In this document: positions 24,118 through 49,526 of the stretch, one piece after another
Numbering within the stretch: position 1 is the first letter of the stretch
Layout: the number at the start of each line of letters is the position of its first letter
DNA from: Lachnospiraceae bacterium
GTDB taxonomy: Bacteria; Bacillota; Clostridia; Lachnospirales; Lachnospiraceae
Direction of reading: 5' to 3'
DNA length: 64,000 bases
Assembly: GCA_017513005.1 (NCBI GenBank)
Contig: JAFWDM010000078.1
Coordinates: 17,228 to 81,227, forward strand
Notes under the pieces: model-generated
Seen by the model: only the letters and a program-made list of their open reading frames with translations
Databases searched by the model: none
Told to the model about the DNA's origin: nothing
Translations under genes and position numbers: made by a program

Positions 24118-25284
24118 CTATTCAGATGCGGGCGAATCCCGCAGAAGCATGACATCCGAACTGTTCAGGTAAAGTTTCTCCGGCACTGTAAATGCACGCC
24201 GGGGATCCCGGGCCGTCCGCCAGAGAAGGGGCGCCGCAGAGGGTTCTCCGGCAAAACTGTTCGCGGCAGAGTCTTCCTCTGCTATGACTTTCCATAAATC
24301 ACCTCTCTCTGCAAGGTCTTCAGATAGATGCGGGGCGCATGCATTCCCCGCGGCGAAGAAGGATACGTTCCACTCGAAGGGATCCTCCAGGACCTCGTAT
24401 CTGCCGACACAGAGCACATTGTCATCTTCCTCCCCCCGTTCGGCATGGAACATATGCGCCCTGATCTCCACGGCCCGGATCCTGGCGGGCGCATCCGCGG
24501 GAAGCCCGCTGCCAAAATGCAGGCGGATCCCCCAGAGAGGAACCTCGACCGTATGCCCGTCGACCACCCTTGCCGGAGCGACGTTTTTACAGCCGGACAG
24601 GCGCGCCCCGGTGACAGTCTCCGGGTTTTTGAAAAAATCCCGCACCGGAAGGGTCCTTTCGGAAATGCCGTCCTGCAGGCAGCAGACACTCGAGCACAGA
24701 CGGTATACCTCGTCGCGGCTGTGGGTGACAAGGACAGCCGGAACCCCGGCTGTATCCAGAAGGGATTTCATTTCATTCTGCAGCACCCACTTCAGGTGGG
24801 AATCCAGCGCGGAGAACGGCTCGTCCAGGAGGATCAGGGCCGGCTCCTGCGCCGCGATCCTCGCCATGGCAACACGCTGCTTCTGCCCTCCGGACAGTTT
24901 CCCGGGATACCGGTCCGCAAGGTCCTGGACCTGGAAGCGCCGCAGGTAGTCCGCCGCTCTCCCCGTATCTTTTTTCCGCCCCATCGCCGCCAGGACATTC
25001 TGCAACACGGTCATGGTCGGAAAAAGGGCATAGTCCTGAAACATATAGCCGGTTCTCCGCTTCTGCGGGGGCAGGTTGATCTTTTTTCCGGAGTCAAAAA
25101 AGATCCTTCCGTCCAGCGAGATCTGTCCCTCGTCCGGCGTCATAATGCCCGCGATACACTTGAGCGTCATGGTCTTTCCGCTTCCGGAGGCCCCCAGGAG
25201 CGCATGCAGGCCCGCGTCCGTCTCAAAACAGACCTGCAGCTGAAAGTCTCCCGTCTTTTTTCGAATATCCACCCGCAGACCCAT
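24118..25284 (-). CDS. modC: Molybdate ABC transporter, ATP-binding protein
   Basis: 388 aa ATPase. Walker A GASGSGKT (about residue 33), Q-loop YMFQDYALFP, signature LSGGQKQR, Walker B LILLDEP, and H-loop VTHSRDE are all present. The C-terminal third (TVEVPLWGIRLHFGSGL and following) is a MOP-like/TOBE regulatory region followed by a longer tail. Last gene of modABC and of the respiratory/cofactor gene run. GGGGGAGGAGG lies before ATG. Confidence 0.93.
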   Translation of the reverse strand: MGLRVDIRKKTGDFQLQVCFETDAGLHALLGASGSGKTMTLKCIAGIMTPDEGQISLDGRIFFDSGKKINLPPQKRRTGYMFQDYALFPTMTVLQNVLAAMGRKKDTGRAADYLRRFQVQDLADRYPGKLSGGQKQRVAMARIAAQEPALILLDEPFSALDSHLKWVLQNEMKSLLDTAGVPAVLVTHSRDEVYRLCSSVCCLQDGISERTLPVRDFFKNPETVTGARLSGCKNVAPARVVDGHTVEVPLWGIRLHFGSGLPADAPARIRAVEIRAHMFHAERGEEDDNVLCVGRYEVLEDPFEWNVSFFAAGNACAPHLSEDLAERGDLWKVIAEEDSAANSFAGEPSAAPLLWRTARDPRRAFTVPEKLYLNSSDVMLLRDSPASE

Positions 25285-25387
25285 CTATGCCTCCTCCCCC
25301 GGACCCCGGACGGTCCCTGCGGCTCCGTCCGGTTTATCTCAGCGGGAAGACCCCCGCCTCCATAAGCCTCTGCTCTTCCATAATCCA

Positions 25388-26074
25388 CTACTCCCTATCC
25401 TCGGACACCAGATTCATGATCACAATGACCGCGAATGCGATCAGGGTGATGACGGCGGCCCAGAACCCCGCGACCGTATAGTCACCGTCCTGTATGACCA
25501 TGGCGATCCTCTGGGAGATCGTACCGGTCCGCCCCGGTATATTGCCCGCCAGCATGGACGTCGCGCCGTACTCCCCCAGCGCCCGGGCAAAGGTGAGGAC
25601 GACGCCGGACAGAAGCCCCGGCTGTGCCGACGGCACAAGCACTTTGAAAAAGATCGCCGTCTCCGACATGCCCATCGTCCGCGCCGCATAGACGAGGTTC
25701 TCATCCACCAGTTCAAACGCCGCGCGGGCATTGCGGTACATCAGCGGCAGCGCGATGACGGCCGCCGCCAGGATACAACCGGTCCAGGTCTGTACGATCC
25801 TGATCCCGTGCGCCTGGAAGAGATATTTCCCGAAGGGCCTGCGCTGGCTGAAGAATAAAAGCAGGAAAAAACCGGCTGCCGTGGGCGGCAGGACCATAGG
25901 CAGGGTCAATACGCCGTCCAGCACCGCTTTCAGGGCCGGTCTTGCCCGATACACCATCCCCGCCAGCCACGTCCCCAGAAAGAAGCACAGGACCGTCGCG
26001 ACCACTCCCGTCTTCAGTGAGATGAAAAGGGGACTCCAGTCCAGCCCCTGCATAAAAAGCCATAAATTGCGCAT
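25388..26074 (-). CDS. modB: Molybdate ABC transporter, permease
   Basis: 228 aa, about five to six transmembrane helices. It has the permease EAA loop (YAARTMGMSETAIFFKVLVP) and the molybdate/sulfate-type signature FARALGEYGATSMLAGNIPG. GGAG lies 8 nt before ATG. Confidence 0.95.
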   Translation of the reverse strand: MRNLWLFMQGLDWSPLFISLKTGVVATVLCFFLGTWLAGMVYRARPALKAVLDGVLTLPMVLPPTAAGFFLLLFFSQRRPFGKYLFQAHGIRIVQTWTGCILAAAVIALPLMYRNARAAFELVDENLVYAARTMGMSETAIFFKVLVPSAQPGLLSGVVLTFARALGEYGATSMLAGNIPGRTGTISQRIAMVIQDGDYTVAGFWAAVITLIAFAVIVIMNLVSEDRE

Positions 26075-26224
26075 TTCCAGAGCTCCTCAAACCTTTTTCC
26101 ATCGGCCGGTCGGTCGCAATCCCCCTTCCGCCGGCCATCCGCCATTTCTTTTCCTCCGACCTGCCAGCCCAACCTCTTTTCCGCCCGCCGGTCGGCTGAC
26201 CGGCCATTCAAACACATACCGGAA

Positions 26225-27193
26225 TCAGTCCATGACGTCCGGATCAAAATAATATGCCCGGAAAAGCTCCTCCGCCTCCCCGGACAGAAGGAACTCCACA
26301 AAGTCCTTTGCGGCGGCCTTCTGCGCATCGGAGGCCTCCGGATTGACGATCTGCGCGACAGGATAGATGACATTCCCCGTCAGGTCATAGGGGACCGTCT
26401 CCAGGATCTCAAGCCGGTCCTCCATCCCCCGGGTGTCGCTGTAGTAGACTGTGCCCACCTCATTGGATCCCTCGGAGACAGCTGCGGCAACCGCGCCGAC
26501 GTTTACACACTCGTTGATCACCAGGCCGCCGAGCGCCTCCGAGACCTCCTGCGTCGTGATTTCCGAGACATCTGCTCCGTCTGCGGGAGCTTCCAGAATC
26601 CCCGCGCCCACCAGGGCCTGACGGGTATATTTTCCGACGGGAACACTGCCGTCCGCCAGGGCCATACTGGCAGCCTTCTCCAGGTCCCTGAGGCCGGTGA
26701 CGGCAGTCCCGCTGCCCGGCCATGTCACCACGACCACCTGGTTGTTGACCACATTGTGGCGGGTCCCCGGTTCCAGAAGCCCCTCTTCTTCGAGTACATC
26801 CATCTGTTTTTGCGCGGCAGAAAAGAAAATGTCACAGGAAGCGCCCTCCCGGATCTGTGTCATCAGCGTACCGGAGCTGTCATAATTGCCGATGATGTCT
26901 ATGCCGGGGTGGTCTGCCCTGTACTTCTCTATGATGTCCTCCATCACTGTGTGCAGGCTCTTCGCGGCAAACATAGTCAGCGTGATTTTTTCCCGCCCCT
27001 CCGCTGCAGTCTTCTTTGCCGGCACTGTTTCCGCTTCTTCCCGCCGGTCTTCTCCCGCTTTCTTCTCCACGACTCCGCCGTCCCCGGCCGCGGAGCCCTC
27101 CGCTCCGGATGATCCGCACGCAGCCATCAGAACGGCTGCGGCCAGAAAGGCGGCGGCTGCAGTGGTGAATCGTCTCAAATAGTTCTTTTTCAT
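26225..27193 (-). CDS. modA: Molybdate ABC transporter, substrate-binding lipoprotein
   Basis: 322 aa. Signal with lipobox (LMAAC, Cys26) anchors it to the membrane. Residues 27-65 are a low-complexity linker. The binding domain starts at TLTMFAAKSLHTVMEDI and includes YDSSGTLMTQIREGASCDIFFSA, with the Ser residues that hold molybdate in ModA. VPVGKYTRQAL and IYPVAQI further match. It should bind molybdate or tungstate and deliver it to ModB. Confidence 0.95.
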   Translation of the reverse strand: MKKNYLRRFTTAAAAFLAAAVLMAACGSSGAEGSAAGDGGVVEKKAGEDRREEAETVPAKKTAAEGREKITLTMFAAKSLHTVMEDIIEKYRADHPGIDIIGNYDSSGTLMTQIREGASCDIFFSAAQKQMDVLEEEGLLEPGTRHNVVNNQVVVVTWPGSGTAVTGLRDLEKAASMALADGSVPVGKYTRQALVGAGILEAPADGADVSEITTQEVSEALGGLVINECVNVGAVAAAVSEGSNEVGTVYYSDTRGMEDRLEILETVPYDLTGNVIYPVAQIVNPEASDAQKAAAKDFVEFLLSGEAEELFRAYYFDPDVMD

Positions 27194-27217: not shown

Positions 27218-28270
27218 TCAGTGTCCCTTTCCGAACCCGCAGTTCGGATACGTACAGACGGCACACTGCAGGCAGAGTCCCCCCTCGCCGAGTCCTGCAA
27301 GCTCCCCCGGCAGAATCTCGTCATCCGCAATCAGGCGGGGCAGGACGAGGTCAAAAATCGTCCGATTTGCGTACATGGCACAGCCCGGCAGGCCTGCGAT
27401 CGGGATCCTCACCGCATCCCTGCCCTGCGGATCCCGCTTTTCATAATACGCGAGCATGAACATGGCGCCAGGCAGTACCGGGGCCCCATAGGTCACTACG
27501 CGCGCGCCGGTGCTTTTAATGGCAAGGGGCGTCCTGTCGTCCGGATCCACGCTCATGCCGCCGGTGCAGAACACCATCTGCGCCCCCGCATCGATGGCGC
27601 GCAGACATCCCTCCGTGAGGGTCTCCGGCACGTCATCAAAGACCTCGTTGAAAACGACCTCCACGCCATACTCCCGGAGCTTCTCCTCGATCACCGGGGT
27701 AAACCCGTCCCTGATCCGCCCGTGAAAGACCTCGCTTCCGGTCGCCAGGACCGCCGCCCTTTTCAGAACAAAAGGGGCGATGCGGAAGAGGGGAGCATCC
27801 CCGCCGGCCTCCTTCGCGCGTTCCATCTTCTCTTTTTCGATGACAAGGGGGATCACGCGGGTTCCCGCGATCCTGTCCCCTTCCCGGACCGGTGTGTCCC
27901 CGTGCCGGGAGGCGATCATCATCTCCCCCAGCATATTGATGGCACGCAGCCTTTCCCGGTCGATCTTCAGCATGCCGCTCCGGTCCGCGATCAGCTCGAT
28001 CTTTCCCTCGCTCACATCCGACGGATGCATGCCGGCTCCGGCACAGATCCGGTACAAGATCTCCGCCGCCTCATCCTCGTGGAGCATGTTCTCCTCTTTT
28101 TCCCAGACATAGAGGTGCTCTTTCCCTATGCTGAGGAGGACCGGGATATCTTCTTCCATGACGACATGGCCTTTTTTAAATGCAGGTCCCTTGTATTTCC
28201 CGGGAATGATCTGCGTGATGTCGTGGCAGAGCACATGTCCTGCCGCATCCTGTGTTCTGATCAGTTTCAT
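27218..28270 (-). CDS. Molybdopterin-binding protein (MoCF domain) with C-terminal Cys cluster
   Basis: 350 aa. The N-terminal half is like that in clostridial proteins encoded beside molybdenum hydroxylase genes (MKLIRTQDAAGHVLCHDITQIIPG). The C-terminal half is a MoaB/Mog-like molybdopterin-binding domain: AVLATGSEVFHGRIRDGF, VFCTGGMSVDPDDRTP, and GLPGCAMY. It ends in a Cys motif (CLQCAVCTYPNCGFG) that could hold a metal or Fe-S. It probably handles or sorts molybdopterin; the exact step is unknown. Confidence 0.83.
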   Translation of the reverse strand: MKLIRTQDAAGHVLCHDITQIIPGKYKGPAFKKGHVVMEEDIPVLLSIGKEHLYVWEKEENMLHEDEAAEILYRICAGAGMHPSDVSEGKIELIADRSGMLKIDRERLRAINMLGEMMIASRHGDTPVREGDRIAGTRVIPLVIEKEKMERAKEAGGDAPLFRIAPFVLKRAAVLATGSEVFHGRIRDGFTPVIEEKLREYGVEVVFNEVFDDVPETLTEGCLRAIDAGAQMVFCTGGMSVDPDDRTPLAIKSTGARVVTYGAPVLPGAMFMLAYYEKRDPQGRDAVRIPIAGLPGCAMYANRTIFDLVLPRLIADDEILPGELAGLGEGGLCLQCAVCTYPNCGFGKGH

Positions 28271-28333
28271 ACCAGTCGTTATGCCCTCCTGTTCGTAAAC
28301 ATGATTGCTGAAAGCTGCGCAATGCCGCGCGCG

Positions 28334-28442
28334 CGTTCACAGGTGCAAATGCTCTGCGCACTGTCGCGGGTGTAAACGCTCTGCGCGCTGTCGCGGGTGT
28401 AAAACCTCTGGGCGCTGTCGCGGATGTAAATGCTCTGCGCCG
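28334..28442. repeat. Minisatellite, ~29-30-bp unit, ~4 copies
   Basis: Units like GCGGGTGTAAACGCTCTGCG followed by CGCTGTC, directly before the MoCF gene. Adjacent units have no unique spacers, so this is not a CRISPR array. Confidence 0.9.
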
Positions 28443-28468
28443 GTGCAGGTACCGGATGCAGGGTCAGG

Positions 28469-29425
28469 TCAGAGCACGCAGATAACGTCCCCGGCTTTCG
28501 CGCTGCCGCCTTCCAGTACACGCGCAAAAATCCCTTTCGTCGGCATGACACATTTGCCGGTCAGCGCCCGGATCTCGCAGTCTTTATGGCATTCTTTCCC
28601 GATCTGGGTCACTTCACACAGGGCACTGCCGATGCGGAGCCTGGTGCCGGGAGACAGGGTCTCCAGCGCGATGCCCTCCGTCAGGATATTCTCCGCAAAC
28701 TCTCCCGGCAGGATCTCTCTGCCCAGCTCCGCCTCCATCTCCTGTACGTCCTCCCGGGCAAGGAGGCTGACCTGCCTGTGCCAACTGCCGGCATGGGCAT
28801 CCCCGCGAATACCTTCCCCCTCCACAAGGGCAATGGACGCGGCGGGATGCTTGCGGATCCCCTTTTTCTCACTGATGCAGACTGCGCGGAGCAGGCCGGA
28901 CGCCGGCCCGCAGTCGGCAGCCACAGAGCCCCGCAGGATATCCACGCCGTGCCGGATGGGGTCGATCACAGCCTCAATATTCTCTGTTGCCGCCTTCACG
29001 CTCCCCGGCAGGTTCACAATGAGGCTTCCTCCCCGGATCCCCGCGACCGCCCGCGAAAGGCAGCCCCTCGGTGTGATCCGCATGCTCGCCGCACGCATAG
29101 CTTCGGGAATCCCCCGCGCTTCACGCGCAATGACCGCCAAAGTCGCCTCCGGCGTCACGTCCCGCACAGAGAAGCCTGTTCCGCCTGTTGTCAGGATCAG
29201 AGCGGCATCCAGTTCATCCGCACAGCGGATCAGGGCTGCTTCGATCTGCTCTTTTTCATCAGGGACAGTGAGACGGATGATCACCCTCCATCCCCTGGCG
29301 GCGAGCAGCGCCTCCAATGCCGGACCGCTGGTGTCTGTCCGCTCGCCGCGCGCGCCCTTATCGCTGACCGTAATAACGGCTGCCGTACGGCGTCTGTCCC
29401 CTGCTTCCTCTTTTTTTGCGCACAT
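28469..29425 (-). CDS. MogA-MOSC fusion, molybdenum cofactor biosynthesis
   Basis: 318 aa. Residues about 10-170 are MogA/MoaB-like (molybdopterin adenylyltransferase): AVITVSDKGARGERTDTSGP, LILTTGGTGFSVRDVTPEAT, and IVNLPGSVKAATENIEAV. Residues about 175-318 are a MOSC domain: GEGIRGDAHAGSWHRQVSLL, EFAENILTEGI, LRIGSALCEVTQIGKECHKD. The MOSC Cys lies in GKECHKDC. The fusion joins cofactor activation to a domain used for sulfur or cofactor delivery. AGGAGG upstream. Confidence 0.92.
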   Translation of the reverse strand: MCAKKEEAGDRRRTAAVITVSDKGARGERTDTSGPALEALLAARGWRVIIRLTVPDEKEQIEAALIRCADELDAALILTTGGTGFSVRDVTPEATLAVIAREARGIPEAMRAASMRITPRGCLSRAVAGIRGGSLIVNLPGSVKAATENIEAVIDPIRHGVDILRGSVAADCGPASGLLRAVCISEKKGIRKHPAASIALVEGEGIRGDAHAGSWHRQVSLLAREDVQEMEAELGREILPGEFAENILTEGIALETLSPGTRLRIGSALCEVTQIGKECHKDCEIRALTGKCVMPTKGIFARVLEGGSAKAGDVICVL

Positions 29426-29655
29426 AACCTGTTTATCCTCCTACATGTATTCCCGGTTTCCCGACATCCTTCGCCATCCGCTCTTATTTCCGGAATTCGT
29501 TCTGTTTCCTCAGTCTCTTTCTCCTGTTTTCCCGGCTTTATGCCTTCTGTCTTCCGATGCTTCCGCTCCTGTTCCAGCCCGGTTCCATCCGCTGATCCTG
29601 CTCCTGTTCCAGCCCGGTTTCCTCCGCCGATCCTGCTCATGCCGTGGGCCTTCTG

Positions 29656-30828
29656 TCATCCGCCGATCCTGCTCATGCTCCGGCCGGCAGTCGCCCTGGG
29701 CAGTTTTTTTCTCACAGGGCCCTCCGCCCCGGTCCCCTGCCCTTCCGCGGCGGCATTTCCCGCCACTGTTTCCCTCACTTTTGCGGAAGAGTTTCCCGCC
29801 CCGGCTTCCTGTCCGGTCCCGGTGTTCCCCGCCCCGGCTTCCCGCTCTTTCGCGGCAGAGTTCCCGGCTCCCTTTCCCGGCTCCCCGCCGGCTTCCCCTT
29901 CTCCGAACAGCATGGGATTCCCGGGCGGTTTGTTCCGGATCGACCGTATGAACTGCTCCCGCATTTCCTCTTCCGTGCAACCCTTTATACTGTACTCACG
30001 CGAGTCGTGCAGACAGGGGCGGATGTGGCCGTCCGCTGTCAGCCGCAGGCGGTTGCAGCCCGCGCAGAAATGGGCGCTCATGGGGCTGATCAGGCCGATG
30101 CTGCCGCGTGCGCCCGGGAGACGGTAGAGGCGGGCGATCGTGCCTCTGTCCCAGGGCTTTTGCTCCTCCTGCCCGAGCGGGACCGCTTCCGGCAGGGCAG
30201 ACAGGACCTCGCCCGCAGGGATACAGCCTCCGCCCTGCTCCTCTTCATTTCCGGGCATGGGCATCATCTCGATAAAGCGCACATCCACCGGCATCCGCAT
30301 GGTCAGGTCCGCCAGCCGCCGGATCTCCTCCCGGTCTGTCTCCCGCAGGAGGACAGCGTTGATCTTGACCCTCTCAAATCCGGCATGCAGGGCTGCCTGC
30401 AGCCCCCGGAGGGCATCCCGCAGATCCCCTCCCCGCGTGATCTCGCTGTACCGCCCGGCATCCAGTGTATCCAGGCTCAGGTTGATCCTGTCCACGCCCG
30501 CCCCGCGCAGGTCCGCCGCCATCTCCGGCAGCAGGATCCCGTTGGTCGTCAGACAGAGCTCCCGGATCCCCTCTATCTTCCGGATCCCCCGGCAGATGGA
30601 CAGGATATTCTTTTTGACGAGAGGCTCCCCGCCCGTCACACGCACCTTGTACACGCCCAGAGAAGCCGCGGCGCGTACTGCGCGGAGCATTTCCTCCTCC
30701 GTCAGCATCTCCCCGCGGGGTCGCAGCGCGACTCCCTCCGGAGGCATGCAGTACCGGCAGCGCAGGTTGCACCGCTCCGTGACGGACAGCCGCAGATAGG
30801 AGATCGTTCTTCCTCTGGAATCCTGCAT
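29656..30828 (-). CDS. moaA: GTP 3',8-cyclase (MoaA) with repeat insert before the GG tail
   Basis: Radical SAM enzyme for the first step of molybdopterin synthesis, 390 aa versus ~330 usual. SAM cluster motif CNLRCRYC near residue 19; second cluster CAGCNRLRL...RPC. After FIRSIRNKPPGNPMLFGEGE comes a ~75-residue Gly/Ala/Glu repeat tract (AGAGN units), and only then the family's terminal MSRIGG. The last two Gly are needed for catalysis in known MoaA, so the expansion seems to have kept them. Start at ATG 30828 (AGGAGGA, 5 nt); the frame extends to 31002 only through repeat DNA. Confidence 0.93.
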   Translation of the reverse strand: MQDSRGRTISYLRLSVTERCNLRCRYCMPPEGVALRPRGEMLTEEEMLRAVRAAASLGVYKVRVTGGEPLVKKNILSICRGIRKIEGIRELCLTTNGILLPEMAADLRGAGVDRINLSLDTLDAGRYSEITRGGDLRDALRGLQAALHAGFERVKINAVLLRETDREEIRRLADLTMRMPVDVRFIEMMPMPGNEEEQGGGCIPAGEVLSALPEAVPLGQEEQKPWDRGTIARLYRLPGARGSIGLISPMSAHFCAGCNRLRLTADGHIRPCLHDSREYSIKGCTEEEMREQFIRSIRNKPPGNPMLFGEGEAGGEPGKGAGNSAAKEREAGAGNTGTGQEAGAGNSSAKVRETVAGNAAAEGQGTGAEGPVRKKLPRATAGRSMSRIGG

Positions 30829-30869
30829 CATGTCCTCCTGTCTCCGCCGCAGAAAAAAACAGACAGTAC

Positions 30870-31005
30870 TCTGTTGAGACTCTGTTAAAAATCCGTTGTA
30901 CCGCTGTTGCAAAATAATCGAAAAGTCGTCTGAAAGCTGTTGTAAAAATGATTGGAAAACTCTTGCAAAGCAGCTGAAAAAATGATTGAAACGCTGTTGC
31001 AAAAG
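30870..31005. repeat. Degenerate minisatellite between moeA and moaA
   Basis: Imperfect units around CGCTGTTGCAAAA / AGCTGTTGTAAAAATGATTG, spacing ~25-40 bp. It fills the whole gap between the moeA stop and the moaA ribosome-binding site. Confidence 0.65.
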
Positions 31006-31008
31006 CTG

Positions 31009-32325
31009 TCAGAAATCGATCAGAAAAGCTTCCGCCTCATCCGTCGCCGATAAAACTGTGTCGGGCGGCAGGATCGCAAAAGCGTTTGCCCCCGCCAGGC
31101 TGCTCAGCACCTGGTTTCCCTGTTTTTCAAAAATATCCATGTCCTGGATCACAGCCCCCGGATCTATGCGGCCCCGCAGCAGCCTCTCGGTCGGTCTTTT
31201 TTTCGTGTAGTTTCTGCCGAGCCGGACCCGCACAAGGGGCGGCAGCACATCCGTCAGACCCATCCGTCTGCGCAGCACCGGCAGCGCGATCGCGTAGAAT
31301 CCCGTCATGCAGGCGGCCGGATTGCCGGAAAGTCCGAAGACGGGAATGGTGCACCGGCCGTCTTTCTCCTCCCTGCAGGGAGTTTTGCTGCAGATGCCCG
31401 GCTTACCAGCGTCCCGCAGGCCGCCGTATTTTATCTTCCTGCTTCCTGTTCCGTATGCACCTGCCATCCCGGGTTTGAGCGCGACACCCCTGGCGAGGAT
31501 CCGTATGCCCGCTCTCTCCATCGCCGCCGGCGTACAATCGAAGTCCCCGACCGAGACGCCCCCGGAGACAAGCACGGCGTCGCAGGTCCTGACTGCCTCC
31601 TGCAGCAGGGCGCAGATCCTGCCGGGATCATCCTTCCCTGTTCCCAGAAACACACTTCTGCATCCCGCCTGCGAGCAGGCTGCCTGCAGGCTGTAGCGGT
31701 TCGAATCGTAGATCCTGCCCGGCCTGCCCGGAGAAAGCTCTTCCCCTTCCTCCAGAAGCTCCGCCCCCGTGGAGATCACGCCCACGCAGGGCACCCGGAA
31801 CACCTCCGGACAAAAAACGCCCTGCCCCGCCAGCGTGCCTGCCAGACCGGCATCGATCCTGCTTCCCCTGTGCGCTACAACACTTCCCCGCCTGACATCC
31901 TCACCCGGCAGGATCACGTTGGACCCGGGCGCAGCGGGCTCACGGATCGTCACTGTCTCTTTTGAAAAAACCGTTCTCTCGAAGGGCAGGACTGCATTCG
32001 CCCCCTCCGGGACGGGTGCACCCGTCATCAGATGCGCCGCTGTCCCGGGAAGGATCTTTGTGTGCGGCATTTCTCCGGCGGGAATATAATCGATGATCCG
32101 CAGCGTCACCGGATTGTCGGCGGCAGCCTCTGCGACGTCCTCCGCCCGAAAGGCATAACCGTCATAGGGAGACCGCGCAAAAGCAGGAATATCCTCCTGT
32201 GCGATGACGTCCTGTGCCAGCACCCTCCCCGCAGCCTGCTCCAGCGCTGCATATTCCGTTTCTACAGGTTTCACGACAGCAAGCAGAGCGTCCCTCACCT
32301 GCCTGTAATCCCCTCTCTCGATCAT
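31009..32325 (-). CDS. moeA: Molybdopterin molybdotransferase MoeA
   Basis: Inserts molybdate into adenylylated molybdopterin. About 438 aa. Family signatures: EDIPAFARSPYDGYAFRAED, MTGAPVPEGANAVLPFE, PGEDVRRGSVVAHRG, GVISTGAELLEEGE, VLVSGGVSVGDFDCTPAAM and GLSGNPAACMTGFY. A ~30-residue insert (IKYGGLRDAGKPGICSKTP) lies between GVALKPGMAGAYG and VFGLSGNP. The start at ATG 32325 has GGAGGAGGTG upstream; the in-frame extension to 32412 is unsupported. Upstream lies a terminator-like hairpin that might be a control element. Confidence 0.95.
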   Translation of the reverse strand: MIERGDYRQVRDALLAVVKPVETEYAALEQAAGRVLAQDVIAQEDIPAFARSPYDGYAFRAEDVAEAAADNPVTLRIIDYIPAGEMPHTKILPGTAAHLMTGAPVPEGANAVLPFERTVFSKETVTIREPAAPGSNVILPGEDVRRGSVVAHRGSRIDAGLAGTLAGQGVFCPEVFRVPCVGVISTGAELLEEGEELSPGRPGRIYDSNRYSLQAACSQAGCRSVFLGTGKDDPGRICALLQEAVRTCDAVLVSGGVSVGDFDCTPAAMERAGIRILARGVALKPGMAGAYGTGSRKIKYGGLRDAGKPGICSKTPCREEKDGRCTIPVFGLSGNPAACMTGFYAIALPVLRRRMGLTDVLPPLVRVRLGRNYTKKRPTERLLRGRIDPGAVIQDMDIFEKQGNQVLSSLAGANAFAILPPDTVLSATDEAEAFLIDF

Positions 32326-34039: not shown

Positions 34040-34045
34040 CTCTGA

Positions 34046-38089: not shown

Positions 38090-38090
38090 C

Positions 38091-41700: not shown

Positions 41701-41789
41701 ATTCTTTTTCCTCTCAAAAATGGCTGCTGCCCGCGCTCTGGCATGCGCGCGGCAGTATCTTTGCGCGTCGTTTTTAAAGCCTGTACTGT

Positions 41790-41880: not shown

Positions 41881-41883
41881 TGC

Positions 41884-43020
41884 TCAGGTATCCTGCACCA
41901 CGAGCATGACGCAGGTTCCCCTCCCCGGCGCAGACCGTACAGTCAGCTCCGCGCCGATGCTGGAGGCCCAGTACTGCATGCCGGGCAGTCCCATGCCGCC
42001 GCCCTTGCTCTTCACATTCTCTGCATCAAAACCTTTTCCGCTGTCCCGCACCTCCAGGCGCAGTGTCCCGGCCCTGTTCCAGTGCAGGTTCACCTCGATT
42101 TCTCCGGTCTGCGCATATTTACAGGCGTTTGCACAGGCCTCCTGACAGATTCGGTACACGACCGTCTCAACATCCTGCCCGAAGCGGCGTCCGTCCGTAT
42201 TCTCCGTGAAATCCACATGGATCCCGTGGCTGGCTTCCAGAAAGCGGAAGTGCTGCCGGAGCGCTTCCCCCAGCCCCAGGTCCTCCACGACCCCGGGTTT
42301 TACGCGCAGGAGGATCTCCCGGAGTTCCTCCTGGATCTGGTTCAGAGATGTGTCCGCGACCTGCAGTCCCTCCCGGACCTCCTCCATGTCCCGCGCATAT
42401 TTGAGCGTGCGCAGCTGCATCTGGACCCCCACAAGGTTCTGGATCACGCTGTCATGAAGGTCTCTGGCTATGCGCTGCCGCTCTTCATTGATCGCCTCCC
42501 GCACGGGGACATCGACCAGCTCGTAGATCGGGAGCGCCTGATACTCCGGGTGTACCGTCTCGATCGCGTCCTCATAAGCCGAAGCCTCCGCCTCCATCCC
42601 GCAGATCCCCCCTGCGAGCAGGTCCAGCAGCTGGGCATACCGCTCCCTGGTGATCCCGCCGGCCTGCCGCATGGCCAGCAGCAGGACCCCCTCGATCCTC
42701 CCTTCGGCACGGAGCGGGAAGGCGGCAAAGCTCCGCAGGTCCTCGGCGAGCAGGATGGGGGAATTCACGATCTCGCTCTCGCTGTAGGTCTGCAGCGTAT
42801 CCTGCACGATCATCGCCTTTTCCCGACCGTAGACACCGCCCGCGACCCCTTTTCCGGGCTCCAGTACGATCTTCAGATAGTTTTTGCTGCGGTTCCCGGA
42901 AGCTTCTTTCCACACCAGAAGTGTGCTGCGTCCGCGGACTGCAGACGCCATCCCGGCGAAATCAAAACCCGCCTTTTTCCGGAGAGAACGCAGACAATCC
43001 TTCCATGCCTGATGCTCCAT
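41884..43020 (-). CDS. GAF-domain sensor histidine kinase (NarX/NreB-like HisKA_3 type)
   Basis: 378 aa, no membrane helix. Residues about 15-165 are GAF-like. The HisKA_3 phosphoacceptor is in EERQRIARDLHDSVIQNLVG (about residue 202). The HATPase core includes QEACANACKYAQ (N box), DSGKGFD and GMGLPGMQYWA. Cytoplasmic location suggests an internal redox or ligand signal. AGGAGG upstream. It forms an operon with the response regulator and is divergent from the polyferredoxin gene. Confidence 0.93.
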   Translation of the reverse strand: MEHQAWKDCLRSLRKKAGFDFAGMASAVRGRSTLLVWKEASGNRSKNYLKIVLEPGKGVAGGVYGREKAMIVQDTLQTYSESEIVNSPILLAEDLRSFAAFPLRAEGRIEGVLLLAMRQAGGITRERYAQLLDLLAGGICGMEAEASAYEDAIETVHPEYQALPIYELVDVPVREAINEERQRIARDLHDSVIQNLVGVQMQLRTLKYARDMEEVREGLQVADTSLNQIQEELREILLRVKPGVVEDLGLGEALRQHFRFLEASHGIHVDFTENTDGRRFGQDVETVVYRICQEACANACKYAQTGEIEVNLHWNRAGTLRLEVRDSGKGFDAENVKSKGGGMGLPGMQYWASSIGAELTVRSAPGRGTCVMLVVQDT

Positions 43021-43162
43021 GATGCGCCTCCTGCTCCTGACAATGTGTTATACTGACAGCAGAAGCCAATCGTTTTTCTCTGTCCCTGCTGTACCCGCTG
43101 TATCTGCCGCCGTATTCGTTGCAACCGTCCCCACTGTAATCGCTGTAAAAAGGATCTGAACC

Positions 43163-44323
43163 ATGGCCCTCTGGAGTGAATATCTGGCAAAAAAACTGAT
43201 CTTCGACAACCACCCGTCTCTGGACGGGAACCGGTGTCTGAACCACGTCCAGACCCGCAGTCTCTGCACGGTCTGTAAGGACGTATGTCCTGCCGGGGTC
43301 TTTTCCCTCTCCGGCCCGGAAGCGCCTGCTCCGGACTGGACCGCCTGTATAAACTGCGGCCTCTGCGCCGGCGCCTGCCCGTCCCGGGCGATCGCTCCCG
43401 CCGGCCTGCAGATACAGAGACAGTACGCTGCTACCACGAACATGCAAAAAACACCTTACTATAAGGATATCATAATCTCGTGTTTAAATGGACAAAATGC
43501 AGACCTTTATACAGAATACCCCGGCGGATTATCCTGGGAATATCTGTGTTTTCCGGCCCTGCAGGGACGTATCCTCCTGATCACCGGTGACTGCCAAAGT
43601 TGTGAAAAACAAAGCTGCCGCAGACAGCTCGAAAAAAACCTCGCGGCGGCACGCTCTTTCTTCAGAGGCTCCGGCATTTTCCCGGACACCGGTCCCGAAG
43701 TAGCAGGGTCTGCAGCCGGGCCGGTATCTCCCTGTGGGGAAGACATTCGGGAAAAAACTCCCGACTATGCGTCAAATCTCATCGTCACCCGGGATCCGGA
43801 TGCTGTCCCGCCCCGCCGCTATACGCGGCGGGAAGCGCTCAGCCTGGCGGTTCGGCGCTCGGGGCAGACCGCTTCCTCGGTCCTGCCTTCCCTGCAGGAA
43901 TCCGTTCCGGACGGGACCGTCTGGCGCAGGCTTTTGCTGCGCAGGATGGACCTTGCCGCCGACAGAGGAAGGGGCTGTCCGTTTTTCCTCCCGCTCCCGG
44001 CCTTCAGGGAAACCTGCACCGCCTGCGGGATCTGCGCCCGGCTCTGTCCGGCCGGCGCCATCCTGCGGGTGCCAGGCCCCGAAGGATCCGGCCGTTTCTA
44101 CATGGCCCTTCTGCCGGAAAAATGCACCGCCTGCGGGATCTGCGCGGGTGTCTGTCCGGAAAAGGCCCTGCAGGCTCCTGCCCCGGTCCGCATGGCTGCG
44201 CCTGTTCGCCCCCGCCTGCACGCCGTCGCCGCGGCTCCCTGTCCCCGATGCGGAGAGCCGGTCCCCGCAGGAACCGGCTCCGGCCTGTGCGCCCGCTGCC
44301 GCGGGGAACAGGGCTGTTTTTAA
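43163..44323 (+). CDS. Multi-cluster 4Fe-4S ferredoxin protein
   Basis: 386 aa, the only plus-strand gene in the respiratory island. Four [4Fe-4S]-type motifs: CTVCKDVCPAG, CINCGLCAGACP, CTACGICARLCP and CTACGICAGVCP. A middle section has more Cys (CQSCEKQSC). The end has a zinc-ribbon-like CPRCGEPV...CARC and stops with EQGCF. Similar proteins occur beside DMSO-reductase-family operons and may feed or mature the enzyme. Divergent from the kinase gene (142-bp shared upstream region). The last 11 codons are duplicated downstream (44377-44409). Confidence 0.82.
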   Translation: MALWSEYLAKKLIFDNHPSLDGNRCLNHVQTRSLCTVCKDVCPAGVFSLSGPEAPAPDWTACINCGLCAGACPSRAIAPAGLQIQRQYAATTNMQKTPYYKDIIISCLNGQNADLYTEYPGGLSWEYLCFPALQGRILLITGDCQSCEKQSCRRQLEKNLAAARSFFRGSGIFPDTGPEVAGSAAGPVSPCGEDIREKTPDYASNLIVTRDPDAVPPRRYTRREALSLAVRRSGQTASSVLPSLQESVPDGTVWRRLLLRRMDLAADRGRGCPFFLPLPAFRETCTACGICARLCPAGAILRVPGPEGSGRFYMALLPEKCTACGICAGVCPEKALQAPAPVRMAAPVRPRLHAVAAAPCPRCGEPVPAGTGSGLCARCRGEQGCF

Positions 44324-44411
44324 AGCGCTGCAGCTATCTGTGCAAATGGACGCCCCCGGTGCTGCAGGGACTCTGCGCCCGCTGCCGCGGAGAACAGGGC
44401 TGTTTTTAATG
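44290..44411. repeat. Duplicated 3' end of the ferredoxin gene
   Basis: A ~36-bp sequence coding for CARCRGEQGCF and stop occurs at 44288-44323 and again at 44374-44409, 86 bp apart, with only one or two changes. The second copy is untranslated. Confidence 0.88.
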
Positions 44412-44413
44412 CT

Positions 44414-44674
44414 TTAAACTTTGGAGATCCTCTCCTCCGCCTCCCGGATCTCCCGCAGGACGCTTTCCAGCTCTGCGGCAGGGATCTCCTTTTCTTTGAC
44501 GGATGCCGGCAGGGCCAGACTGTCCCCCGCCTCTTTCTGCAGGTCCGCGCTGAGCTTTCTGATCTCGCGCAGGGCCTTTGCCAGCGTCCGGGCCAGCTTT
44601 CCCATGTCCTCCGGTCCCACGATCACATAGGCAATGACCAGTATGAGTGCGATTTCTCCGGGTCCAAGTCCCAT
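44414..44674 (-). CDS. TatA/TatB-family translocase subunit
   Basis: 86 aa. N-terminal helix MGLGPGEIALILVIAYVIVG, then PEDMGKLARTLAKALREIRK as in TatB/TatA, then a helical charged tail. It is the last gene of the molybdoenzyme operon, separate from tatA-tatC, so it may be a dedicated TatB-like partner. Confidence 0.88.
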   Translation of the reverse strand: MGLGPGEIALILVIAYVIVGPEDMGKLARTLAKALREIRKLSADLQKEAGDSLALPASVKEKEIPAAELESVLREIREAEERISKV

Positions 44675-44811
44675 CGTTTTTTCCCCCGCTGCGAATCGTT
44701 TATTTCATTTCTGACAGACCATTCCGGACTTCGGATGATTTCGCATGCCCGAAGGCATGCACAGTTTCGAACTGTTTTCATTGCTCTTCAGGGCATGAGA
44801 TCCGGGTCATA

Positions 44812-46026
44812 TTACTCCCGGTCCGGGAGCAGCTGAAACAGCATGCCGGCCCCCGCCATGACAAAGATGATCAGGCCTGGCGGCAGGATCCCGACTACCC
44901 ACTCAGGCAGGGTCGGGGCATAGTTCCAGAACCGCACGAATACATCCTGCCCCTCTGTAAAGGTACCGACCGCGATCGGGAAGGTCCAGAGCTTTCCCGC
45001 CACCGGAAGCGTGAGGGGGATGGTGTTGAATGCGGGCAGCAGGAGCATCATGCGTTGGATAAAGATACCGATGATGACCAGGACGCTCGCTGCCGCGACC
45101 AGCTCCTTACCCAGACCGCCGCCGACCAGGAACAGGATCATGGCGATCAGGGGAAGCAGGATCTCCAGCCAGAAGAGCGGCCCGTAGGTATGGAAGAGCA
45201 GATGCAGCAGGTGCCGGCTCTCCGGCGTATTGCTCCAGGCCAGGGGGATGATCTCGATGAAGGACATGGCGATGTAGGCGGCGATCGCCGCGGCAGCCAG
45301 CCTCGCCAGCAGCCGGATCCCGTCGCTGTTTTCCACAAACAGGTCGTGTTTAGCCATCAGAGCGCAGAGAAGGATCGTAAAGGACAGGCCGACCGCCGCT
45401 GCCTCCGCACAGGCATTGACGGGGATCAGGGCGCTGTGCCACCACTCACGGGTGTTCTGTGTCGCGAACATAAAGCTGGTGACGATGTTGACGAGGAAAG
45501 CCGCCGGAAGAGCAATATAAGAAAATTTCCTGCAGTTCTCCTCGTTATTCATCCTGTACCCGCGGTCATGTCTGTGCTTTTTCGTATCAGGCAGGAGCGA
45601 CAGCACCACTGCCGCGACGCAGACGATCACATACAGGGTCAGAATGATCACGTCCCAGAAGAGGGGGGATCCCACATTGGGGGTGAGGAGCATGTAGAGC
45701 GCATGGAAGGGCATCCCCAGGTCCTCGAAGATCGCCACACCGGAGGCGACGACCGAGGCAAGAGAACCGATCGCCGCGATCTTTACGAAGGGTTTGAGCT
45801 GCTCCACGTTCCACAGATAAGCAATGGAAAAAACGAGCATCCCGCCCGACGCCATTGCGATAAAAAATTCAAAGCTTCCCATATAGAGGCCCCAGGTGAA
45901 GCTGTTGCGCATGGCTGTCACCTGCATGCCGGCCACCAGCTGGTAAGCCCACGCCGCCAGTCCCGCGGCGCACATGGCAGCGCCGATGACCAGGGCTGCC
46001 AGTTTTCTGCCGGATAAGTTTTTCAT
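44812..46026 (-). CDS. nrfD: NrfD/PsrC-family membrane subunit
   Basis: 404 aa with about ten transmembrane helices. NrfD-type features include TWGLYMGSFEFFIAMASGGM in the first helices and WWHSALIPVNACAEAAAVG. It binds no haem and would anchor the complex and exchange electrons and protons with the membrane quinone. The sequence ends in LFQLLPDRE. It follows the ferredoxin subunit by 40 nt. Confidence 0.93.
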   Translation of the reverse strand: MKNLSGRKLAALVIGAAMCAAGLAAWAYQLVAGMQVTAMRNSFTWGLYMGSFEFFIAMASGGMLVFSIAYLWNVEQLKPFVKIAAIGSLASVVASGVAIFEDLGMPFHALYMLLTPNVGSPLFWDVIILTLYVIVCVAAVVLSLLPDTKKHRHDRGYRMNNEENCRKFSYIALPAAFLVNIVTSFMFATQNTREWWHSALIPVNACAEAAAVGLSFTILLCALMAKHDLFVENSDGIRLLARLAAAAIAAYIAMSFIEIIPLAWSNTPESRHLLHLLFHTYGPLFWLEILLPLIAMILFLVGGGLGKELVAAASVLVIIGIFIQRMMLLLPAFNTIPLTLPVAGKLWTFPIAVGTFTEGQDVFVRFWNYAPTLPEWVVGILPPGLIIFVMAGAGMLFQLLPDRE

Positions 46027-46066
46027 ACTCGTACTCTATGACCTCCTCTCACAGAATCCTGCTGCC

Positions 46067-46813
46067 TCACGGGATCACGTTCGGCGTTGTATTTTCCCAG
46101 GACTGGTCCGCCCAGCCGGCGTCCACATTTTTGCTCTTGTTCGAAGAAATATAGTAGACCTTGGGTTCCGTCCCGTAATCCTCCCGGAGCCGGAAAACCT
46201 GCTTTGTTCTGATCAGATGGCTCACGTGGGAATCCGGATCGTCCAGGTCTCCGAAAAACCGTGCCTTGCCGGGGCAGGCCCGGATACAGGCCGGCAGCGT
46301 GTCATAGGTTCCGTCCTCGTTCATGCATTCCACGCAGAACGTGCACTTCTCTACGACCCCCGCAGGCCGGTTCTGTGTATAGACCAGGCGTTTCCCCTTC
46401 TCCTTCACATCGAAGGGATACCCGTAGGCATATCCCGTTTCTTCCTTTTCCTTCGCGGGGTCCTTCCAGTTGAACTGGCGCACGCCGTAGGGACAGGCCG
46501 CCATACAGGTGCGGCATCCGATACAGCGGTTGTAGTCCACCAGGATCATCCCCTCCTCATTTTTATAGGTCGCCCCGGTGGGACAGACGCGCTCACAGGG
46601 CGCGTTGTCGCACATCTGGCAGGAGACCGGGAGATATTCAATTTTATAAGCGCCGTCGCTGCCGACTGCGGACTGATGATAGTCGGATCCCTGGGTAAAG
46701 ACCCTGTTCCACCAGGTGCCCTGCGGCTGCGCGTGGTGCATCTTGCAGATCACGGCGCAGGTCTGGCAGCCAATGCATTTGTCGAGATCGATCACCATAC
46801 AGTAACGCATCAA
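46067..46813 (-). CDS. dmsB: Four-cluster [4Fe-4S] electron-transfer subunit (DmsB/PsrB type)
   Basis: 248 aa. Sixteen Cys in four groups: CIGCQTCAVICK, CQMCDNAPCERVCP, CIGCRTCMAACPYG and CTFCVEC...CIRAC. It lacks a signal sequence, so it should travel out with the catalytic subunit. The start overlaps the catalytic gene stop (ATGA). It carries electrons between NrfD and the molybdenum subunit. Confidence 0.95.
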   Translation of the reverse strand: MMRYCMVIDLDKCIGCQTCAVICKMHHAQPQGTWWNRVFTQGSDYHQSAVGSDGAYKIEYLPVSCQMCDNAPCERVCPTGATYKNEEGMILVDYNRCIGCRTCMAACPYGVRQFNWKDPAKEKEETGYAYGYPFDVKEKGKRLVYTQNRPAGVVEKCTFCVECMNEDGTYDTLPACIRACPGKARFFGDLDDPDSHVSHLIRTKQVFRLREDYGTEPKVYYISSNKSKNVDAGWADQSWENTTPNVIP

Positions 46814-49407
46814 AGATCACCCGCCTTTCTATAATCGACCAGGCACTCATTCCAGGAGGTGTTGGGCGCCCACATCTGCGACACAAAATAGATCTCGTGA
46901 ATGGGGTTGATCCACATTTTCAGGAGCGTATTGTAGGAGGTGCCGTGTGTGTAGCGGCTCCACCAGCCCTCTTCGAAAATGCACATCATGGACCTGATGC
47001 CTGGATCCAGCACCGCCTCCGCCAGAAGCTTTCCGCGGTCATTAAAGACCTCCACCATATCCCCGGCGGCGATGCCCTTTTCTGCCGCGTCGCCCGGATT
47101 GAGATAGACCTTGGGACTGTCGTCCTGCAGTTCCCGCATCATTGCATTGTTGGAGTGCGTAGAGTGGACGCGGTGGATGGAGTTTCTGGTCACATAATTG
47201 AATTTATAGAGCTCGCGGGCCGCCGGATTCAGAACGTACTCGGTCTCCTCAAAGGGAGGCTTGTGGACCGGCAGGCATTCGCCCAGCCTGATGAAGGTAT
47301 CCTCGTCCTTGTAAAACTCCATGCGGCCGCTCTTGACAAACTGGGCCGTCGCCGCCAGCGGCGTCGGATAGCTCTGCGGCGGGAAGGGAACCTTTTCGTG
47401 GATCTGCTCCCAGAAGGCGATCCTCTTCCTGCCCGGGTTGGCGTGTCTGAACTTGACCGGTCCCTTTTTCAGGTCTTCGAGCGTGAGACCTTCCAGCTCA
47501 AAATTGCCTTTCTCAAAGGTGAGCTTTATGACCTCCTCCACCACATCGTCGGGATCCATGTCACCATAATAGTACTTCGCCTTATCGCCGGGATTGATCC
47601 GGTCCGCCAGTTCCCGGATGATCCAGACCTCATGCCTGCAGTCGTACAGGGGCTCTATAGCGGGGTTCATCATCTGGATATAGGGATGGCAGGGTGTGGA
47701 GACCATCTCCTTCTTCTCATACCAGGAGACCCCCGGCAGGTTCACGTGCGCATACCTGCTGGTCGTGGTATTCTGGAAGTCGAAGTTGACGACCAGTTCC
47801 AGCTGCCCGCTCTCCACCTGTTCCCGGAGGATATTGCTCATGTTGTGCTGGTCAAAAGGATTACAGCAGTAGATCAGCCAGGCCTTGATGCCGTGCTCCG
47901 GGTAGGGGCAGGTCATGGTCTCGGTCTTTCCGTTGAGCATGTAGCAGAAGGAGAATCCTGCGCTCTTTCTGTCCGGCTCCTCCGGCACGCTCCACCACTG
48001 GCCCGTGCTGCTGTATTTGAGCTTGTACTGGCCGGCATAGGTGGACATGCCGTCGCCCAGATGTCCGTAGTTGCCGGTGAGGGCGCACAAAAGCGCCATG
48101 GCGCGGCCCTTCAGGTCACCGTGGTACCACTGGTAGTTGGAGGCGCCGTACATGATGTGAAGAGGTTTGACCATCGCGATCTCACGGGCCAGCCGCTCGA
48201 TCTCCGATGCGGGCATATCCGACATCTCCTCCACTGCCTCCGGCGTATACTCGCTGAGCATCTCCCGCATCAGGGCAAACGCGGGCCTGCAGCGCACCCG
48301 TCTCCCGTTCTTTAAGGGCACATCGACCGTGCCCTCCAGCCGGGTGGTCAGAGGCAGGTCCAGATGCTCCGGATCCACTGTGAGGTACTGCCCGGCTCTT
48401 TCGTCATAGACCACGTAGGCCTCCCTGTATTCCGGCATATCCGCGGGCACTTCCAGGCCTTCCACATCCCTCGCCAGGAGCCTTTTGTGCGTGTCGTCCC
48501 TGATCAGGATCGGCAGGTCCGTGTAGGTCCGGACGAAATCGGCGTCGTACAGGCCCTCCTCCACGATGACTCTGGAGAAGCCGTTCGCGACCGCCGCGTC
48601 GCAGGACGGCCTGATGGAATACCACTCATCCGCCTTGGAAGCCGTGGCGGTAAAACAGGGATCGAAACAGATCACCTTCGATCCGTTTTCCTTTGCCTCG
48701 ATCAGGAAATGGGCATCCGGGATCCGGGTCTGCAGAGGATTGGACCCGAAAATCAGGATATACTTCGCGTCCGGCCAGCAGTAGGTATCCAGCTCCTCGC
48801 TCTGCACCCCGAAGGTGATCGGGGCGGACATGGGCAGGTCGCCGTTCATCTCATAGCCGCCCAGGACGCTGAAATGGTTCAGGGTCGCCAGCCTGATCAG
48901 GGCGCCCTTACAGACATGACCGGTGCCCGCGACCTGCACGACGACAGCCACGGATTCCGGGCCGTAGGTATCGATGATCCTGCGCAGCTCGCTGCCTGTA
49001 TAGTCGAGCGCCTCGTCCCAGCTGACGTCCTCGTAGCCCTCCGGGATCCCGGACGGGTTCCCCTCTCCTCTCCAGATCTGCGGCCCCTTCATGCGGTGCG
49101 GACCATAGATGAGATTTGAAAAAGAGATCCCCTTCAGACATCCCCTGGGATTGTGCTCCTCATCCGGATAGTCCGAAGCCTGGATAATGTCCTTGATCTC
49201 CCCCTTGTAGACACAGGCCTGCTGTCCGCAGCCCCCGGTGCAGTTGGGCGCACACGTTGTCCGCACGTATTTGAGTTCGCCCTTCTGCGGCTGTACATCA
49301 GGGGCCGCCTGTGCCGTCAGTTCGATCCCTCCCACTGCGGCGACAGCCCCGGCCGCTGCCGTCGCCTGGAGAAACTTTCTTCTGGTGAGTTTCAGTTTTT
49401 CATCCAT
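46810..49407 (-). CDS. Molybdopterin oxidoreductase, catalytic subunit (DMSO reductase family, type II-like)
   Basis: 865 aa, exported by Tat: RRKFLQ at residues 9-14, hydrophobic stretch to ~28, and AQA cleavage region. FS0 cluster Cys52-x3-Cys56-x3-Cys60-x29-Cys90. The next segments (HNPRGCLKG, GDLPMSAPITFGVQ, FGSNPLQTRIPDAHF, NYQWYHGDLKGRA) look most like NarG and other type II enzymes, where the Asp in GDLP (Asp190 here) binds molybdenum. NarG has His where Cys52 stands. It pairs with DmsB/NrfD-like subunits, not a haem subunit. Substrate unknown. ATG 49407 has GGAGGGG/AAGGA upstream; the extension to 49494 is unlikely. Confidence 0.93.
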   Translation of the reverse strand: MDEKLKLTRRKFLQATAAAGAVAAVGGIELTAQAAPDVQPQKGELKYVRTTCAPNCTGGCGQQACVYKGEIKDIIQASDYPDEEHNPRGCLKGISFSNLIYGPHRMKGPQIWRGEGNPSGIPEGYEDVSWDEALDYTGSELRRIIDTYGPESVAVVVQVAGTGHVCKGALIRLATLNHFSVLGGYEMNGDLPMSAPITFGVQSEELDTYCWPDAKYILIFGSNPLQTRIPDAHFLIEAKENGSKVICFDPCFTATASKADEWYSIRPSCDAAVANGFSRVIVEEGLYDADFVRTYTDLPILIRDDTHKRLLARDVEGLEVPADMPEYREAYVVYDERAGQYLTVDPEHLDLPLTTRLEGTVDVPLKNGRRVRCRPAFALMREMLSEYTPEAVEEMSDMPASEIERLAREIAMVKPLHIMYGASNYQWYHGDLKGRAMALLCALTGNYGHLGDGMSTYAGQYKLKYSSTGQWWSVPEEPDRKSAGFSFCYMLNGKTETMTCPYPEHGIKAWLIYCCNPFDQHNMSNILREQVESGQLELVVNFDFQNTTTSRYAHVNLPGVSWYEKKEMVSTPCHPYIQMMNPAIEPLYDCRHEVWIIRELADRINPGDKAKYYYGDMDPDDVVEEVIKLTFEKGNFELEGLTLEDLKKGPVKFRHANPGRKRIAFWEQIHEKVPFPPQSYPTPLAATAQFVKSGRMEFYKDEDTFIRLGECLPVHKPPFEETEYVLNPAARELYKFNYVTRNSIHRVHSTHSNNAMMRELQDDSPKVYLNPGDAAEKGIAAGDMVEVFNDRGKLLAEAVLDPGIRSMMCIFEEGWWSRYTHGTSYNTLLKMWINPIHEIYFVSQMWAPNTSWNECLVDYRKAGDL

Positions 49408-49526
49408 CTTCCTTTTCCCCTCCTTCCGGTGATCTGGTGCGGCAGGTAAAAGCATGCTGCTCTTCAGAGTCATCTGAAAAACGACCTGCAGCAAGAGAAT
49501 TCAGTGTCCGCCTTTTTATACACCCT

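Follow-up and report, generated by a model that had tools for sequence, protein, structure and literature searches.

Does a bacterium filed among the fermenting Lachnospiraceae carry the genes for an anaerobic respiration, and if so, what would it respire? The question is raised by a stretch of 64,000 nucleotides from contig JAFWDM010000078.1 of a Lachnospiraceae bacterium (assembly GCA_017513005.1), referred to here as the window, which holds a cassette of genes for an exported molybdoenzyme, its electron-transfer partners, a two-component system, and quinone-type enzymes. In the original prediction, this region was a nearly self-contained respiratory island in which electrons would pass from an electron transfer flavoprotein (ETF) through FixCX, a prenylquinone, an NrfD-type protein, and an iron-sulfur protein to the molybdoenzyme. 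Pfam and NCBIfam scans of the window's proteins found all the genes listed there in place (modABC, moaA, MobB-MoaC, mogA-MOSC, moeA, mobA, Tat, FixCX, the two-component system, and the molybdoenzyme), FixX being recognized through the structure chain 7koe_D. Beyond that list, the window contains a molybdenum cofactor (Moco) riboswitch (32515 to 32691, minus strand; RF01055, 64.3 bits versus a gathering score of 36) and two operator-like sites. Judged from sequence, the window quite likely encodes a respiratory cassette that is conserved, linked to a quinone, and under a common control site, and we lean slightly toward a nitrate-induced, menaquinone-linked anaerobic respiration that would depend on exogenous 1,4-dihydroxy-2-naphthoate (DHNA).

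The cassette and its carriers

The conserved core of the cassette spans positions 34951 to 49407, which is narrower than the island first proposed; the cofactor genes are its neighbors. All core genes but one lie on the minus strand. The gene for the molybdoenzyme (46810 to 49407; PF00384, PF01568, and PF04879), a type II dimethyl sulfoxide (DMSO) reductase-like protein with a twin-arginine signal, is followed by those for a four-cluster [4Fe-4S] electron-transfer protein resembling DsrO/ArrB (46067 to 46813; Fer4 families), an NrfD-type membrane subunit (44812 to 46026; PF03916, 101.6 bits), and a TatB-like protein (44414 to 44674; PF02416). A polyferredoxin gene (43163 to 44323; Fer4 families) lies on the plus strand, divergent from the gene for a sensor kinase (41884 to 43020). 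Then come a NarL/LuxR-type response regulator (41047 to 41880; PF00072 and PF00196), TatA (40649 to 40834; PF02416, 57.6 bits), TatC (39817 to 40695; PF00902, 204.5 bits), the ETF-quinone oxidoreductase-like FixC (38372 to 39664, with the start at 39664 assumed; PRK10015, 505 bits versus a cut-off of 466), the ferredoxin FixX (38091 to 38375; without a Pfam match), a MenA-like UbiA prenyltransferase (37139 to 38089; PF01040, with MenA models scoring best, yet below their cut-offs), a polyprenyl diphosphate synthase (35907 to 36911; PF00348, 211.6 bits), and a radical S-adenosylmethionine (SAM) protein (34951 to 35910; PF04055).

We searched for the molybdoenzyme in 61 genomes, the window's own and its relatives, 37 belonging to the genus and 24 others to the order. 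Matches at an E value of ≤0.001 occurred in 21 of the 61: close molybdoenzymes (75 to 94% identity) in nine genus genomes, including the window's own and one partial copy at a contig edge, and distant matches only among the 24 others. In its own genome, which is 97.4% complete, the window's molybdoenzyme is the single PF00384 match at that threshold. The FixC of the cassette type accompanies it in seven of the nine carriers versus none of the 28 other genus genomes. Among the eight carriers whose cassette stretches were read, five (G035, G009, G014, G008, and G028) have the identical order of molybdoenzyme, 4Fe-4S protein, NrfD, TatB, ferredoxin (reversed), kinase, regulator, TatA, TatC, FixC, FixX, UbiA, prenyl synthase, and radical SAM protein, one relative being the strain Sarcina sp. 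DSM 11001; in the other three (G010, G026, and G005), the contig stops within the cassette.

The proposed gene set was therefore recovered in relatives as far as the core is concerned, and the mod and Moco genes fell outside it. In the five relatives read, they do not adjoin the cassette, except for moeA next to the radical SAM gene in G009 (L170), and a self-contained island was rejected on this ground; genes of these kinds do recur next to the molybdoenzyme in L092, L096, L098, L106, L117, and L128. "Nearly self-contained" proved too strong in two further respects, since the ETF genes are on contig C74 and menG is on contig C20, and since MenD and MqnA/D (over cut-off) and MoaE were not found in the window's genome.

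A wider scan of genome contigs gave 54 named loci, of which 50 were analyzed (L129, L132, L133, and L134 were dropped). The four-cluster protein is present in 47 of the 50, NrfD in 44, and the polyferredoxin in 9. Close relatives come from uncultured Lachnospiraceae metagenome-assembled genomes (MAGs) of the RUG isolates, presumably of rumen origin, from goat-gut MAGs, and from Sarcina sp. DSM 11001, which NCBI files under Clostridiaceae and which here falls in the same genus as the window's genome. More distant relatives (48 to 61%) occur in Peptococcaceae (Nt197P3 bins, which we take to be from termite gut), Coriobacteriales, Gordonibacter, Moorella, Desulfitobacterium, Deltaproteobacteria, Thermodesulfobacteria, and a Methanoperedenaceae archaeon. 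A tree built from 34 sequences places those of Lachnospiraceae, Coriobacteriales, Peptococcaceae, and Gordonibacter on one side of the midpoint root. In L112, L113, L115, and L119, the gene after NrfD resembles, by eye, a TorD/NarJ-type chaperone, which is absent from the window's cassette.

Control site, sensor, and acceptor

Alignment of the DNA upstream of the molybdoenzyme gene and of tatA in six or seven genus members revealed conserved blocks at both places; in G028, the start used lay past the first block, which was found further upstream. The site consists of two boxes like GGGGAATCCCC, each palindromic and about 22 bp apart. A pattern with up to three mismatches matched the window twice (versus 0.02 expected), and both matches, on the minus strand and followed by TATAAT, lie at these places, one upstream of the molybdoenzyme gene (49527 to 49591) and one upstream of the tatA-tatC-fixC-fixX-ubiA operon (40912 to 40975). 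In a census of 23 loci chosen for carrying or possibly carrying the site, which gave 27 sites with both boxes, TATAAT stands exactly 25 nt past GAT in 19 (random positions, 0.00015). It stands at 23 nt in L128, and none is near in L095; six sites have a four-of-six match at 24 nt, one in G028 on the other strand and five upstream of a gene for a metallo-beta-lactamase (MBL)-fold protein, which has its own copy of the site in five genomes.

Apart from L083 and L104, every moco locus of the genus with enough upstream DNA gave a hit. Box pairs also occur upstream of the molybdoenzyme in L091, L092, L095, L121, and L128 and upstream of tatA in L091. None was found in the window upstream of the MBL, histidine kinase, prenyl synthase, moeA, modA, nrfD, tatB, and Fd2 genes, in the window's genome upstream of etfB and four genes of a second operon described below, or upstream of the molybdoenzyme in L093, L096, L098, L101, L103, L106, L117, L124, L125, and L131. 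The two window sites are probably a candidate operator common to the molybdoenzyme and tatAC-fixCX-ubiA operons, which would be switched jointly.

What might act on such an operator is suggested by the kinase, a single protein of 378 amino acids in which an NreA-type GAF domain, the receptor, is fused to HisKA_3 and HATPase domains (PF07730 and PF02518). A profile of eight such kinases matched NreA, the staphylococcal nitrate receptor (4iuh), over profile positions 3 to 120 with an E value of 1.5e-32, and the best GAF match outside NreA-derived chains reached only 2.4e-4. Residues W37, G42, N43, G56, G58, G61, P88, and I89 are identical in all eight, and the pocket tyrosine is a tyrosine in two; in NreA, a tryptophan, a glycine loop, and a Tyr-Pro-Ile stretch line the pocket. 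The electron acceptor, which had been left open, is no longer wholly so, given the NreA-type domain of the kinase, a pointer to nitrate. NreA binds nitrate via its GAF domain, and the DNA bound by NreC is a GC-rich palindromic region (PMC8139620; also PMC9310391 and PMC8199190). Resting on this sensor domain, nitrate is, if by little, the acceptor we would favor.

The nearest solved structures of the molybdoenzyme are PcrA, followed by ethylbenzene dehydrogenase and NarG. Its TIGR03479 score of 437 bits is below the curated cut-off of 984.75, and we therefore call it type II-like only. Asp190, aligned with the molybdenum-ligand Asp of NarG (number 222), is kept in all 34 rows, as are three of the four FeS0 cysteines, the fourth being present in 32. 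The active-site stretch GYxMNGDLP is unlike both FYDWYGD of PcrA and FYDWYCD of NarG, and the idea that the active site proves nitrate was accordingly rejected. In a Peptococcaceae MAG (L096, 14646 to 18858), NapG-, NapH-, NrfH-, and NapA-like genes adjoin the same molybdoenzyme complex, and similar Nap-type genes lie near it, by eye, in L098 and L117; these neighbors tie the complex to nitrate, yet the sensor may serve Nap there. In the Moorella and Desulfitobacterium relatives, a second molybdoenzyme and a PAS-type regulator adjoin the complex (by eye). MoaE was not found in the window's genome or, overall, in 18 of the 20 genomes searched; its absence was rejected as a special trait, as Moorella mulderi and Paradesulfitobacterium lack it too, and the widespread missing match perhaps reflects an unrecognized molybdopterin synthase in Clostridia.

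Electron input, quinone supply, and neighboring genes

The best solved relatives of FixC and FixX are the Thermotoga maritima EtfABCX chains 7koe_C (2e-80) and 7koe_D (1.3e-16). The ETFQO_UQ-bd match of the cassette FixC is just below its cut-off (26.7 versus 27.7 bits), and that of a second FixC in the genome scores 36.9. EtfABCX couples NADH oxidation to the reduction of ferredoxin and menaquinone (PMC10734219). The window's genome has two FixCX pairs but a single ETF pair, located on contig C74 and adjoining, by eye, a 3-hydroxybutyryl-CoA dehydrogenase-like gene. Its EtfB is closest by sequence to bifurcating ETFs, the five best solved relatives including CarD, LctB, and an EtfABCX chain. 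In L091 and L093, EtfB and EtfA are encoded within the cassette, between NrfD and the Fd2, regulator, Tat, and FixC genes; EtfBA directly follow NrfD or TatB in L092 and L128, and no FixCX was seen in those stretches. Acyl-CoA dehydrogenase-type proteins (PF02771) are present in all 11 genomes searched, so that the single ETF pair is probably common to these and FixCX; for the same reason, we rejected the idea that the ETF is dedicated to FixCX for want of any acyl-CoA dehydrogenase. Rnf-type PF03116 was found in 13 of 15 genomes, the window's own included.

The second operon, on contig C20, encodes a LUD protein, LdhH of a quinone-type lactate dehydrogenase (1,015 bits; cut-off, 800), a MenA-like UbiA, MenG/UbiE (TIGR01934, 222 bits versus 158.35), FixC, and FixX, which gives the genome two UbiA proteins. 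UbiA and MenG adjoin FixC of this second type in 13 of 14 relative loci, L066 being cut off. The second type is present in 22 of the 61 genomes and the cassette type in 9, and the second occurs in eight of the nine genomes with the cassette type versus 14 of the 52 others (Fisher, 0.0007, uncorrected for kinship and completeness). Two Get3/ArsA-type ATPases with HSP20-like tails adjoin the second FixCX operon in L074 (5357 to 7787).

MenD passed its cut-off in none of 11 genomes searched, all of which have MenD-like matches below it; MqnA/D likewise passed in none, with one match below cut-off, other Men and Mqn genes not having been searched. MenD passes in both Gordonibacter genomes, and MqnA/D in Moorella mulderi, Paradesulfitobacterium, and, weakly, one Coriobacteriaceae MAG, which indicates that the searches work in such genomes. 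Fenn et al. (2017; PMC5738691) treat menA and ubiE without the rest of the pathway as a sign of DHNA as a growth factor, and a 2026 survey (PMC13386864) states that the lineages lacking quinone pathways belong mostly to Bacillota and Chloroflexota. The prenylquinone of the original path changes in one respect: its headgroup is probably scavenged, most likely as DHNA.

Next to the core, on the minus strand, lie mobA and mobB-moaC (32846 to 34954; MobB-MoaC, 32846 to 34039), then moeA, moaA, a MoCF-MOSC gene (28469 to 29425), and a further MoCF protein gene (27218 to 32412 together), and modA, modB, and modC (24118 to 27193; modC, 24118 to 25284). Overlaps of 4 bases join the prenyl synthase, radical SAM, and mobA genes, and mobB-moaC follows 6 bases further on; from this tight spacing, the Moco block may be coread with the core in the window. 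The riboswitch lies upstream of moeA, which suggests that the cofactor block is under its own control. Upstream of the molybdoenzyme, the degenerate MBL-fold protein (49611 to 50729, minus strand) is a frequent neighbor (10 of 50 loci) and fast-changing; the HxHxDH metal motif is absent in 10 of 10 relatives, and a role as a substrate-processing enzyme was set aside for this reason. Genes with T2SSE and T2SSF domains, like those of type II secretion or type IV pili, lie at 58531 to 62983.

Predicted chain, rival explanations, and known systems

Put together, the NreA-type kinase domain would sense nitrate, and the regulator, bound to the two-box site, would switch on the molybdoenzyme operon and the tatAC-fixCX-ubiA operon. 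The single bifurcating-type ETF, docked on FixCX, would use electrons of NADH to reduce both menaquinone and ferredoxin, the ferredoxin being usable by an Rnf-type complex, and the quinone-type lactate dehydrogenase would feed the same menaquinone pool. Menaquinone would be made from the scavenged headgroup by the prenyl synthase, MenA-like UbiA, and MenG. NrfD would then oxidize menaquinol, and the four-cluster protein would relay the electrons to the exported molybdoenzyme for the extracellular reduction of nitrate or perhaps a comparable acceptor. The path first proposed fits the homologies, the gene order in five relatives, the ETF genes inside the cassette in L091 and L093, and the common site upstream of two operons; the respiration itself is a prediction.

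Several observations weigh against this scheme. The enzyme itself gives no sign of nitrate specificity, the kinase family occurs in only 8 of 50 loci, and where Nap-type genes are present (L096 and, by eye, L098 and L117) the sensor could serve Nap. Box pairs are missing upstream of the molybdoenzyme in L096, which has kinase and regulator, and in L093, which has the regulator; the palindromes can be taken as terminators; and no MoaE was found in the window's genome. The chain could be real with a different acceptor, such as an oxyanion of sulfur, selenium, arsenic, or chlorine or some organic molecule, and nitrate or another ligand of the NreA domain be a mere cue. We regard this as a serious possibility, if the less probable one: the active-site stretch is specific to the family, no such kinase turned up in the stretches covered for the Moorella, Desulfitobacterium, and Deltaproteobacteria relatives, and NrfD-type complexes of Thermosulfurimonas, perhaps of another family, were assigned to thiosulfate or polysulfide (PMC4911364), but the genome's only molybdoenzyme of the family adjoins an NreA-type kinase. 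That the enzyme runs in the opposite direction, as an extracellular dehydrogenase feeding the quinone pool and, through it, ETF and crotonyl-CoA, would suit the ETF and acyl-CoA dehydrogenase-type genes that follow the complex in L091, L092, and L128 (by eye); with a nitrate-type sensor and a pool already fed by the lactate dehydrogenase, we consider it very improbable.

Scavenging would be unnecessary if the radical SAM protein made or remodeled the quinone headgroup. The protein shows 82 to 84% identity among five genus sequences and keeps a CxxxCxxC motif and four further cysteines in all rows (its AlphaFold2 model was weak, with a mean predicted local distance difference test score of 60.7, and was not used). 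Of the 25 genomes searched for it, 13 have a match above 300 bits, and MenD or MqnA/D passes in none of these 13 versus 5 of the 12 without it (Fisher, 0.015, or 0.005 with three genus genomes dropped; kinship uncorrected), all five lying outside the genus. In the genus, L173, and L176, its gene adjoins that of UbiA or of the prenyl synthase, but in L091, L092, and L128, it adjoins the molybdoenzyme or Moco genes, and an ordinary menaquinone would suit the MenG encoded in the second operon. The radical SAM protein may act in quinone chemistry or in enzyme maturation, and we think headgroup synthesis or remodeling unlikely. More doubtful still is the widest version: gut Clostridia would have a respiration not yet described, in which a new quinone made or remodeled by this protein serves a bifurcating ETF-FixCX and a new exported molybdoenzyme subfamily, governed by a single NreA-fusion sensor and a single operator present in both Bacillota and Coriobacteriales. 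As for the two-box sites, they may be terminators of the preceding genes, the two operons then not being coregulated: the boxes can pair, a T-run follows, and both window sites lie just past a stop codon. Each box is itself palindromic, however, three boxes about 22 bp apart occur in L092 and L121, and the TATAAT keeps a constant 25 nt in most sites, which makes this reading rather improbable.

If the favored scheme of a nitrate-induced, DHNA-dependent respiration is true, some members of a genus placed with the fermenting Lachnospiraceae live by respiration, probably of nitrate; the membrane subunit of their reductase has no heme, and for their quinone they depend on other microbes. Nitrate reduction in the gut would then be linked to cross-feeding of a menaquinone precursor, an uncharacterized molybdoenzyme subfamily found in several phyla would gain a testable acceptor, and sensor, regulator, and operator would be handles for finding the regulon in other genomes. 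The presence of the cassette in a culture-collection strain, Sarcina sp. DSM 11001, makes the claim directly testable.

No description of such a cassette was found in the open-license literature searched, and its parts are each of a known kind. With the DHNA- or menaquinone-dependent gut bacteria of Fenn et al. (2017), the genome shares menA- and ubiE-type genes without MenD and a predicted terminal reductase; it differs in having operons with FixCX and in belonging to a lachnospiral genus, the word "Lachnospiraceae" being absent from the main text of that paper (PMC5738691). The molybdoenzyme shares family, aligned Asp, Tat export, and an iron-sulfur partner with the type II DMSO reductases PcrA, EbdA, and NarG, but has an NrfD membrane subunit, its own GYxMNGDLP motif, a score below the TIGR03479 cut-off, and a Cys at the first FeS0 position, where PcrA has His. 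Clear FixC and FixX homologues and a bifurcating-type EtfB are held in common with EtfABCX/FixABCX, whereas here EtfAB are encoded elsewhere, one pair serving two FixCX pairs and maybe shared with acyl-CoA dehydrogenases. Finally, the NreA-type GAF domain, HisKA_3 kinase, LuxR-type regulator, and GC-rich palindromic target recall NreABC of Staphylococcus, to which we liken the system without filing it as a member, since NreA and NreB are separate there and receptor and kinase form a single protein here. What sets this system apart is the way its parts are combined, together with the fused sensor and the operator.

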